The notes below the pieces were generated by a model that was given only the letters and a program-made list of their open reading frames with translations, did no database searches and had not been told where the DNA came from. Of a stretch of DNA of 64,000 bases, positions 21,453-37,953 are shown one piece after another; the first letter of the stretch is position 1; every line of letters begins with the position of its first letter. A program made the position numbers and the translations under genes. Source of the stretch: Halorientalis litorea (GTDB lineage: Archaea; Halobacteriota; Halobacteria; Halobacteriales; Haloarculaceae); contig NZ_CP095482.1 in assembly GCF_023028225.1 (NCBI RefSeq), positions 1 through 64,000 of the forward strand. Direction: 5' to 3'.

Positions 21453-22628
21453 ATGACAGACGACGTTGTCGTGCTCGGCTCCGGCTACGCCGGGGCGGGT
21501 GCGATAAAGAGTCTCGAATCGGAACTCGGCCGCGACACTGACATCACGTGGATTTCTGACGTGGACTACCATCTCGTTCTCCACGAGTCCCACCGCTGCA
21601 TCCGCGACCCGGCCATTCAGGACAAGGTCACCATCCCTGTCGAAGACATCAAATCACCCAGCACCCGCTTCGTGCAGGGGGAAGTGGTCGACATCGACGC
21701 CGATGACCGCGTCGTTACCCTCGCCGACGAGTCCACCGTCGACTTCGACTACCTCCTCGTCGCAATCGGCTCGCGGACGGCCTTCTTCGGTATCGACGGC
21801 CTGCAAGAACACGCGCACACGCTCAAGAGCCTCGACGACGCGCTGGGCATCCACGAAGACGTCAAGGAGGCCGCCCGCGAGGCGTCCCAGTCCGACCCCG
21901 CACAGGTCGTCATCGGCGGCGCGGGTCTCTCGGGCATCCAGTCGGCGGGTGAAGTGGCCGAGTTCCGTGACGACCACCGTGCCCCCATCGACATCCACCT
22001 CGTCGAGGGCCTCGACGAAATCTTCCCGGGCAACGACCCCGAGGTGCAGGGCGCGCTCCGCACGCGACTGGAGGACCGCGACGTGAACATCATGACCGGC
22101 GAGTTCATCGGCGAAGTCGACGAGGAGACGGTGTACATCGGCGACGACATCGAACTCGACTACGACGTGTTGCTCTGGACCGGCGGCATCACCGGCCGTG
22201 AGTGCGTCGAGGACCTCGACGTGGAGAAAGACGAGCGCAACAAACGCATCCACACCGGGATGAACTTCCAGACGGAGAACGACCGCATCTTCGCCGTCGG
22301 CGACTGCGCACTCATCGACCAACCCGGCGAGAACCCCGCGCCGCCGACGGCAGAGGCCGCGTGGGAGGCCGCCGACCACATCGGCAAGAACATGGCCCGG
22401 GCCATGCGCGGCCAACCGCTGGACGACTGGACGTTCGAGAGCAAGGGCACCGCCATCTCCGTCGGCGAGGACGCCGTCGCCCACGACGTGTCCTACGCCG
22501 GCATCGGGTTCCCCATCGACACCTTCGGCGGGTTCATGGCACGGAACCTGAAGAAAGCCATCGCCGCCCGCTGGATAAACTCGGTTACCGGCCCCGGCCG
22601 CGCGCTGAAGGCCTGGCCGGATATGTAG
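21453..22628 (+). CDS. type II NADH dehydrogenase-like FAD oxidoreductase
   Basis: A 391-residue pyridine-nucleotide disulfide oxidoreductase-fold enzyme. It has an FAD-binding GSGYAGAGA motif at the N-terminus, an NAD-binding GGAGLSGIQSAGE motif near residue 152, and an FAD-contacting IFAVGDCALID near residue 283. The C-terminal amphipathic stretch (MARNLKKAIAARWINSV) fits peripheral membrane binding as in NDH-2, which passes NADH electrons to quinone without pumping. Sulfide:quinone reductase is less likely because the key cysteines are absent. Start ATG 21453. Confidence 0.85.
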   Translation: MTDDVVVLGSGYAGAGAIKSLESELGRDTDITWISDVDYHLVLHESHRCIRDPAIQDKVTIPVEDIKSPSTRFVQGEVVDIDADDRVVTLADESTVDFDYLLVAIGSRTAFFGIDGLQEHAHTLKSLDDALGIHEDVKEAAREASQSDPAQVVIGGAGLSGIQSAGEVAEFRDDHRAPIDIHLVEGLDEIFPGNDPEVQGALRTRLEDRDVNIMTGEFIGEVDEETVYIGDDIELDYDVLLWTGGITGRECVEDLDVEKDERNKRIHTGMNFQTENDRIFAVGDCALIDQPGENPAPPTAEAAWEAADHIGKNMARAMRGQPLDDWTFESKGTAISVGEDAVAHDVSYAGIGFPIDTFGGFMARNLKKAIAARWINSVTGPGRALKAWPDM

Positions 22629-22632
22629 TACC

Positions 22633-22771
22633 TTTTTACTGCGTCGGGTGTCCTCGGGCGGCTTCGCCGCCCTGCGGGCACCCCTCCTCGTAAAAAGCTA
22701 CGCTAAAAACTCCTCGACGCTCCCTCCGGTCGCGTCGAGTGAACCGCGCTCGCCTTGCTCGCGCGGATGCT
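22633..22771 (+). repeat. three-hairpin intergenic repeat, copy A
   Basis: Starts with a T5 tract right after the NDH-2 stop. Linker ctgcgtcgggt is followed by hairpin 1 (22646-22683; inner stem GGGCGGC/GCCGCCC), an A-rich box (22691-22709), hairpin 2 (22713-22739; CTCGACGC/GCGTCGAG), tgaa, hairpin 3 (22744-22766; CCGCGC/GCGCGG) and atgct. Copy B lies at 37658-37771. Linkers are shared, while stems 1 and 2 differ in sequence but still pair. The stop codon of the convergent small membrane protein overlaps its end. Confidence 0.7.
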
Positions 22772-22956
22772 CACTCTCCTTCCAATATCCTGCCTTCGAA
22801 GTAGAGGTACGCACCGCCGATAAGCGCGTAGAGGAGACCGTAGCCGGCGAACAACAGGTCGTCCTGCGTCGCGCCGAGTGCGGCCTGCAGGAGGCCGAGG
22901 CCGACCATCGCGGTCCCGACCAACCGCCGCAGTCGCTGTTTCTCCACGAGTCTCAC
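22771..22956 (-). CDS. small membrane protein (61 aa)
   Basis: About 61 residues with two hydrophobic segments (LVGTAMVGLGLLQAALG and LLFAGYGLLYALIGGAYLYF). No ATG fits without deep overlap with the upstream gene; the GTG at 22956 lies 10 nt after the nucleoside phosphorylase stop, so it is taken as start (GTG 22947 is an alternative). Last gene of the nucleoside operon. Function unknown. Confidence 0.65.
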   Translation of the reverse strand: MRLVEKQRLRRLVGTAMVGLGLLQAALGATQDDLLFAGYGLLYALIGGAYLYFEGRILEGE

Positions 22957-22966
22957 CCTGTGCCGG

Positions 22967-23812
22967 TCATTCGATGCTGAGTCCCGCGTGCCACGCTCCG
23001 GCACCCGATTCCTCGACGCGTTCGTCCATCTTTGCCAAGAGGTGGGTGGCGAGGCTCGCGGTCTCGGCGGCCCGCCGTTCGCCCTCGGTCCGGAACTCGC
23101 CGGTGACGCGGTTGGCGTAGACGGTACAGACGGCGCCGGCCCGCAGGCCGTAGACGTTCGCGAGCGTCAGGATGGCGCTGGCCTCCATCTCGAAGTTGAT
23201 GACGTTCGCCGCGCGCAACTCCTCGACCAACTCTTCGCTCCCGCGGGCCTCGAAGTCCTCGAAGCCGGGACGGCCCTGCCCGGCGTAGAACGAGTCCGTC
23301 GAACAGGTCAGGCCGACGTGGTAGTCGTAGTCTAGGCGCTCGGCGGCGGCCACGAGGGCGGCGACGACGGCGTGGTCCGCGACCGCGGGGTAGTCCTCGC
23401 GGACGTACTCCTCGCTGGTCCCCTCCTGTCGGACCGCACCGCGCGTGATGACTAGGTCGCCGACGCTCGCCTCCTCGCGGATAGCCCCACAGGACCCGAC
23501 CCGTATCAGCGTGTCCGTACCCACTCGGGCGAGTTCCTCGACGGCGATTGCCGCGGACGGACTCCCGATGCCGGTCGACGTGACCGAGATGGGTGTGCCC
23601 TCGTAGGAACCGGTCGCGGTGCGGTACTCGCGGTGGCTCGCCACCACGTCGCTGTCGTCCCACTCGGCGGTGATTTTCCCGACTCGTTCCGGGTTGCCCG
23701 GGAGGAGGGCGGTGTCGGCCACGTCGCCCGATTGGACTTCGAGATGGTACTGTTGGTCGTCGTTCGGGTTCTCGCTCGCCGCGTCGTCGGCGGCGGTACT
23801 GTCGTCGGTCAT
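22967..23812 (-). CDS. nucleoside phosphorylase (uridine/purine type)
   Basis: A 281-residue NP-I family phosphorylase that splits nucleosides with phosphate into base and ribose-1-phosphate. The N-terminal phosphate-binding region ALLPGNPERVGKI and the central GSCGAIREE and ADHAVVAALVAAA regions match uridine phosphorylases; the base-binding part (INFEMEASAILTLA) carries the family's conserved EMEA ribose site. Its ATGA overlaps the end of the cytidine deaminase gene. Uridine as substrate is the simplest reading given that neighbour. Confidence 0.88.
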   Translation of the reverse strand: MTDDSTAADDAASENPNDDQQYHLEVQSGDVADTALLPGNPERVGKITAEWDDSDVVASHREYRTATGSYEGTPISVTSTGIGSPSAAIAVEELARVGTDTLIRVGSCGAIREEASVGDLVITRGAVRQEGTSEEYVREDYPAVADHAVVAALVAAAERLDYDYHVGLTCSTDSFYAGQGRPGFEDFEARGSEELVEELRAANVINFEMEASAILTLANVYGLRAGAVCTVYANRVTGEFRTEGERRAAETASLATHLLAKMDERVEESGAGAWHAGLSIE

Positions 23813-37578: not shown

Positions 37579-37651
37579 GGGCGTGTGGCCTAGCGGACAG
37601 GGCGAGGGGTTCCTAACCCCTCGATCCCGGGTTCGAATCCCGGCACGCCCG
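37579..37651 (+). tRNA. tRNA-Arg (anticodon CCT)
   Basis: 73-nt tRNA. The acceptor stem GGGCGTG (37579-37585) pairs with CACGCCC (37644-37650), discriminator G. The anticodon arm is AGGGG-TTCCTAA-CCCCT, giving anticodon CCT for AGG codons, and the T arm contains GGTTCGAATCC. CCA not encoded. A 22-bp near-copy of its 3' end lies at 37775-37796. Confidence 0.95.
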
Positions 37652-37657
37652 TCCACC

Positions 37658-37771
37658 TTTTTCTGCGTCGGGTTCGCGCGGAGCGCGAACCTCTCCTTGA
37701 AAAACGTGGGCGAAAAAGTGGAACTCGCTCCGCGAGTTCCGTGAACCGCGCGCTGGTAGCGTGCGGATGCT
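37658..37771 (+). repeat. three-hairpin intergenic repeat, copy B
   Basis: Begins 7 nt after tRNA-Arg with T5 and ctgcgtcgggt. Hairpin 1 is GGTTCGCGC-gga-GCGCGAACC (37671-37691), then an A-rich box (37699-37717), hairpin 2 GGAACTCGC-tcc-GCGAGTTCC (37720-37740), gtgaa, hairpin 3 CCGCGCGCT-ggt-AGCGTGCGG (37746-37766) and atgct. Same order of linkers as copy A at 22633-22771. Stems differ but keep pairing. Confidence 0.7.
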
Positions 37772-37774
37772 TGT

Positions 37775-37796
37775 GGTTCGAATCCCGGAACGCCCG
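37775..37796 (+). repeat. copy of tRNA-Arg 3' end (attachment-site-like)
   Basis: 22-bp sequence matching 37630-37651 (T-arm through discriminator of tRNA-Arg) with one mismatch. It directly follows repeat copy B, so the repeat is bracketed by the tRNA 3' end and its copy. No integrase within reach. Confidence 0.6.
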
Positions 37797-37953
37797 CTCA
37801 CTACGTTCGTGGCCGGGCCGTAGTCCCACTCGCTCACTCGCCGGACTCCCAACACGCCCGCTACCCACTTACCACTTCGTCGCGCCTCGCTCCGCTCGCC
37901 AGCAGTGAACCACGTCGGCTCGGAAGTTGTTTCCAAAAGTTTGCACCGGGAGC

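Follow-up and report, generated by a model that had tools for sequence, protein, structure and literature searches.

The two intergenic hairpin elements designated copy A and copy B, which are located in the analysed window (the whole stretch of 64,000 nucleotides of the Halorientalis litorea genome, here termed G000), belong to one large and apparently undescribed family. By analogy with known systems, the element can be viewed as a short interspersed hairpin element that seems to act like a bidirectional terminator and to spread like a small non-autonomous mobile element. Its most favoured reading is that of a mobile two-way terminator or insulator lying flush with gene ends, and this reading is probably correct. 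In the proposed model the element would comprise about 100-150 bp of interspersed DNA with a P1 stem bearing hairpin 1, a hairpin 2, usually a hairpin 3, and conserved linkers. One T5 tract per strand should stop transcription arriving from both sides, and the element may insulate neighbouring transcription units as well as both edges of low-GC cassettes.

Re-reading of the window sequence confirmed the positions of both copies and the occurrence of the shared linkers in the same order. It also bore out the statement of the earlier note that the hairpin stems of copies A and B are unrelated in sequence yet fully paired. Of the three-hairpin anatomy proposed there, hairpins 1, 2 and 3 are real, but the outermost stem, P1, was overlooked, and hairpin 1 is its tip. 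The parts are arranged in the order P1, A-box, hairpin 2, TGAA, hairpin 3 and ATGCT. In P1, the T5 tract together with the sequence preceding it pairs with the first A-tract and the nucleotides that follow, and the second A-tract usually lies 8 nt beyond the first. The features at copy A are as follows.

22626-22628, plus strand: stop codon TAG ending the upstream gene (21453-22628, Pyr_redox_2 family); the P1 foot of copy A begins with the final base of this codon
22628-22771, plus strand: copy A, entire element (covariance-model match 22620-22771, E 7.7e-20)
22628-22639, plus strand: P1 5′ arm GTAcCTTTTTAC with the forward T5 tract at 22633-22637, paired with 22690-22701 GTAAAAAGcTAC; the foot covaries across the family
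22646-22684, plus strand: hairpin 1, the apical part of the P1 stem
22690-22701, plus strand: P1 3′ arm with the first A-tract at 22692-22696, a T5 tract when read on the minus strand
22705-22709, minus strand: second A-tract, the second T5 on the minus strand, 8 nt from the first
22713-22739, plus strand: hairpin 2 (CTCGACGC/GCGTCGAG)
22740-22771, plus strand: TGAA linker, hairpin 3 (CCGCGC/GCGCGG) and ATGCT end
22771-23004, minus strand: convergent 77-aa ORF, its stop codon (22771-22773) adjoining copy A

Copy A exactly fills the gap that separates the stop codons of the two convergent genes (TAG, 22626-22628, plus strand; TCA, 22771-22773, minus strand). The final T of the element doubles as first base of TCA. 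Copy B follows a tRNA gene and is composed of the same parts.

37579-37651, plus strand: tRNA-Arg(CCT), directly upstream of copy B
37653-37771, plus strand: copy B, entire element (covariance-model match 37646-37771, E 3.0e-22)
37653-37663, plus strand: P1 5′ arm CCACcTTTTTC with the forward T5C, paired with 37699-37709 GAAAAAcGTGG
37671-37691, plus strand: hairpin 1 (GGTTCGCGC/GCGCGAACC)
37699-37718, minus strand: A-box GAAAAACGTGGGCGAAAAAG, which reads CTTTTTCGCCCACGTTTTTC on the minus strand and gives two T5C sites
37720-37740, plus strand: hairpin 2 (GGAACTCGC/GCGAGTTCC)
37742-37771, plus strand: TGAA, hairpin 3 (CCGCGCGCT/AGCGTGCGG) and ATGCT
37775-37796, plus strand: second copy of the tRNA-Arg 3′ end (22 bp, 95%), after copy B

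Due to the fact that congeners carry the same tRNA-end repeat with an unrelated module in between, the direct repeat round copy B was dropped as proof of insertion and left out of the evidence for mobility. Downstream of tRNA-Arg(CCT) (L211, L213, L215-L218; window positions 37652-37900) short modules form a mosaic in which every module ends in a copy of the tRNA 3′ end, and a second module, TGCAGCGACC..GGGATTCGAAGTAGACC..GGGCGTG, alternates there with the hairpin element in different congeners.

The motif TGAACCGCGC..GCGGATGCT was found twice in the window compared to 0.00 occurrences expected from shuffled sequences. The 11-mer CTGCGTCGGGT alone is weak (6 matches versus 4.7 expected with one mismatch allowed); the significance rests on the ordered whole and not on the 11-mer by itself. 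A single sequence pattern revealed a third canonical copy in another part of the genome, and a looser pattern detected copies in 22 of 40 relatives. For the search of haloarchaeal genomes that had been proposed as a check on the family, a covariance model was built from ten copies, its E-values being derived from a short calibration. Many matches with covarying stems were obtained: at least 46 at E ≤ 0.01 in the own genome, a few weak ones of which are reverse-strand overlaps of strong ones, and at least 36-73 per genome, or at least about 490 in total, in nine congeners. With stricter filters, matches were present in at least 245 of 294 genomes and at least 71 of 78 genera of the Halobacteria. 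Relatives with copies include Halorientalis, Haloarcula, Salinibaculum, Halomicrobium, Haloferax and Natrinema, and in other genera copies are located on plasmids. No copy was found in phage records by one blastn query or in viral contigs by one exact 19-mer. The earlier note recognised no described family, in agreement with Rfam, which gave no match at gathering score over the window except tRNAs and none for copy A up to E=5, and with a literature search, omitting most subscription papers, in which no description of the hairpin element was found.

Among the loci, the P1 foot occurs as CCAC/GTGG, CTAAA/TTTAG, GTA/TAC, TGGA/TCCA, CGA/TCG, GCACATTTTT/AAAAATGTGC and CTAAATTT/AAATTTAG, the last of which takes in the stop codon of the upstream gene. 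Longer copies contain extra hairpin modules within hairpin 1 or between hairpins 2 and 3. Several of these modules recur with conserved linkers of their own, e.g. GTTCCCGTGAGTGACCGCAGGGAAC, CGAGAGAGcgaaGCTCTCTCGTGATnaCGAAAG.., CACCAGAAATC..GATTTCTGGTTTGCTCACGAGACG.. and TTTGCTCACGGGCAC.. (loci L009, L013, L028, L030; L017, L018, L033, L080; L015, L032, L081, L103; L026, L090, L099, L158), and they have the appearance of additional families nested within the element. At G000 loci (L070-L073, L077, L085, L095, L100 and others) a loose ACCGC(N)CCGC-rich tract is often present just beyond GCGGATGCT; after hairpin 3, other genomes have low-GC DNA in the place of this tract.

The position of the copies relative to genes was analysed for those with a same-strand gene ending within 120 nt. 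In 62 of these 75 cases the T-run starts 1-11 nt past the stop codon, mostly at 4-7 nt. Other copies of the family are located after tRNAs or point towards the start of a gene on the opposite strand. The preference for sites 3′ of genes and tRNAs predicted in the earlier note is confirmed, and its guess of a terminator family is supported. T5 tracts are present on both strands (in the P1 arm on the plus strand and in the A-boxes on the minus strand). The combination of T5, A5 and second A-tract was present in 102 of 134 copies. Haloarcula orthologues of the Pyr_redox_2 gene upstream of copy A (assigned as best matches, 70-74% protein identity) have the element at the same 3′ end with different stems; the foot at this gene is GTA/TAC in the window and L160 and CCAC/GTGG in L135 and L139. 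In Haloferax volcanii, T5C located directly after genes serves as intrinsic terminator and terminates transcription with 95% efficiency in vivo (PMC7237163), and the element has the same tract in its P1 arm and A-box. Since T5C is a proven terminator of Haloferax, copies of the element can be expected to terminate transcription as well. Known archaeal terminators are a bare T stretch, whereas the T tracts of the element are built into a conserved, repeated and mobile multi-hairpin structure. Some observations argue against the terminator reading. T tracts alone would need neither hairpins 2 and 3 nor the conserved TGAACCGC..GCGGATGCT. Moreover, about a third of the copies lie with the 5′ end of a gene of opposite orientation before them, a place at which this gene requires no terminator, and the P3 side in G000 itself is not GC-poorer.

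The element is mobile, new copies arising between direct repeats of the adjacent gene end. The clearest case is the filled site L157 in G108 and its empty counterpart L169 in G130, which have nearly identical flanks: L157 contains an element of 106 bp and, in addition, a second copy of CTACTGCCCGTACGTTTCTTCGAGATATTCGAC (33 bp, 97%), which is the 3′ end of the adjacent gene beginning at its stop codon. Further sites are empty in a relative (L149/L180, L156/L175, L152/L177 and L147/L176), orthologous sites being assigned as best matches. The guess of a transposable-like element made in the earlier note is thus supported by filled and empty sites and by the direct repeats. Direct repeats of varying length (22-84 bp) flank 28 of 151 copies, and 14 of these allowed a long convergent ORF to be positioned; in all 14 the repeat starts within -7 to +1 of the stop codon of this ORF. 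The insertion ends are imprecise and the right ends variable; imprecise ends are unusual for a transposase and count against the reading as a mobile terminator. A reverse transcriptase acting by target-primed insertion was rejected as mobiliser because RVT_1 was found in 0 of 8 genomes while the controls were positive. Simple tandem duplication as the sole cause of the repeats was dismissed on the grounds of the L157/L169 pair, in which the empty site lacks both the element and the repeat. Separately, tandem arrays of gene 3′ end plus element were observed at L093 (G000 1685298-1685600), L075 (2268559-2268846), L023, L015, L120 and L152, with units of about 150-265 bp, one of them exact; elements are hot spots for tandem duplication.

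How insertions come to lie at gene ends can be explained in more than one way. It is possible, although somewhat doubtful, that the family represents a new kind of mobile element with one junction placed directly at a stop codon or at the 3′ end of a tRNA, the insertion of which duplicates the last 22-84 bases of the gene on the opposite side. Such an element would operate without known transposase, integrase or reverse transcriptase and would spread two-way transcription barriers, its stems being kept paired by hairpin exchange at the DNA level and not by selection on RNA. Homology-facilitated illegitimate recombination with a donor already carrying the element flush with a stop codon would also give the same layout. 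Alternatively, the copies might be purely selfish non-autonomous elements (PATE-, REP- or MITE-like) that are moved in trans by a transposase recognising folded single-stranded DNA, gene ends being merely sites where insertion is harmless. Filled and empty sites, direct repeats, the high copy number, and hairpins with conserved flanking linkers resembling REP and IS200/IS605 ends are all compatible with this explanation. It is nevertheless unlikely, as Y1_Tnp was absent from G108 and G005 and found only as a fragment in G130 (it is present in G000), and G108 and G130 are the pair with recent insertions; for the same reason the Y1 transposase was rejected as mobiliser. In addition, copies persist at the same gene across genera, and harmlessness explains neither the start 1-11 nt from stop codons nor repeats beginning at the stop codon.

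As tested, features that define PATEs, MITEs, REPs and RNA families are lacking in the element. The PATEs and SMRs of Haloquadratum are likewise short transposase-free haloarchaeal repeats with palindromes, and PATEs can be heterogeneous. However, IS605 elements, PATEs and SMRs insert without target duplication (PMC3119063), in contrast to the repeats found here, including that of about 33 bp at the filled site. SMRs differ by a highly conserved sequence and terminal inverted repeats, and for neither PATEs nor SMRs has a position flush with stop codons or the presence of paired T5 tracts been described. MITEs share terminal inverted repeats and have a target duplication of fixed length, whereas P1 is internal to the left part of the element and the repeat length varies. 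The likeness to the REP/BIME and RAYT system lies in short intergenic hairpins with conserved flanking bases and many copies. REPs sometimes supply a stop codon to their neighbours (PMC3733652), and the element offers one as well (TAA inside the CTAAATTT foot). A REP (20-40 bp) is a single short palindrome that is tagged GTAG or CGTC and conserved in its stem sequence, whereas the element has three or four stems of freely changing sequence; it also differs in its direct repeats and in its occurrence in G108, which lacks the Y1 transposase. SPRITE of Streptococcus pneumoniae, a repeated mobile element resembling a transcription terminator (review PMC10969869), is bacterial and Rho-independent terminator-like, and the element is likened to it by description and not by sequence.

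Pairing in the family is very strong. In 101 distinct rows, 95.1% of the cells are paired, double changes occur in 24 of 29 pairs, and the covariation score is 0.401 versus 0.02-0.04 with slid partners; the alignment was fitted to the structure, the margin over the slid partners being nevertheless very large. Free of this structure-fitted alignment, the P1 foot of copies without CCACC has 3.84 of 5 positions paired compared to 2.13 after shuffling (maximum 2.58). Together with the folding energies of copies A and B (MFE z-scores of -6.4 and -5.3, in each case with 0 shuffles folding as well) and the location after genes and tRNAs, this would be expected from a structured non-coding RNA or a 3′-UTR RNA element working through its RNA fold. 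Several observations render such an RNA quite improbable. The covarying stem changes are almost all Watson-Crick. Single stem mismatches are strand-symmetric, with 14 G-U and 23 A-C compared to 7 and 0 in the tRNA control, the numbers being small. G-U pairs amount to 4.0% on the plus and 5.0% on the minus strand, versus 10.1% on the sense and 5.3% on the antisense strand of the tRNA control. In the comparison of G108 with G130, which are closely related (about 88-93% identity), whole hairpins were often replaced while the flanks still aligned (L141/L140, L159/L144, L161/L174), and L141 and L151, two different G108 loci, have a nearly identical hairpin 1. Transcription from either side would reach a T5 tract before the RNA could complete the P1 stem, and Rfam is without a match. 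In view of the symmetric mismatches, few G-U pairs and swapped hairpins, the claim of the earlier note that maintained pairing marks a selected structure, perhaps a structured RNA, is not supported. Inverted repeats at the DNA level appear to fit the stems better than a conserved RNA does. The stems may be kept paired by correction of imperfect palindromes or by exchange of hairpins between copies; as either process would explain the stem changes, covariation in the element is by itself no proof of selected RNA.

In several genomes two elements face each other, with P1 outward, round low-GC DNA (GC 0.47-0.54 in the bracketed insert versus 0.58-0.70 in the flanks). One junction varies among three species: in G000 it has a single element without cargo, in G006 the cargo measures 529 bp and in G003 1447 bp. 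The G003 cargo (L121:3003-4449) is of low GC content and has a NikR-like regulator and a NicO-like nickel transporter between facing elements, the NicO match being just below the Pfam cut-off. G000 is also empty where G004 has two elements separated by 590 bp between divergent genes, and a further empty G000 site lies opposite L061. Many low-GC cassettes begin, beyond ATGCT, with a GGTGGTCAGTACAGG-like stretch; at the insert ends of L037, L052, L061 and L109 such a further similar stretch was observed past ATGCT. Since the stems within a facing pair are unrelated, such pairs were rejected as the terminal inverted repeats of a single transposon. It is very improbable that the element is an att-like boundary or recombination site of small gene cassettes, with facing pairs bracketing the cassettes and allowing their exchange and single copies as remnants. 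This explanation would account for the unique low-GC inserts, the different cargo at one junction, the empty G000 sites and the tRNA-end repeats, which resemble those at integrase sites, and also for the excess of inward over outward pairs (10 versus 2 within 2 kb, compared to 14 versus 18 beyond 10 kb). However, convergent genes account for part of this excess, most copies are single, stems differ without relation between paired elements, and no recombinase was found in the inserts whose ORFs were examined.

The family is present in most salt-loving archaea with dozens of copies per genome. If the reading as a mobile two-way terminator or insulator is true, much of the seemingly empty intergenic space of haloarchaea would, class-wide, consist of one unrecognised mobile family, which would set transcript ends and bracket newly acquired genes. 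A caution would follow as well: intergenic repeats can owe strong covariation to processes acting on DNA, and a structured RNA need not be implied. Gene-end-directed insertion, if confirmed, would be of a new kind, and the repeats starting at stop codons pose the testable question of how insertion finds the gene end.
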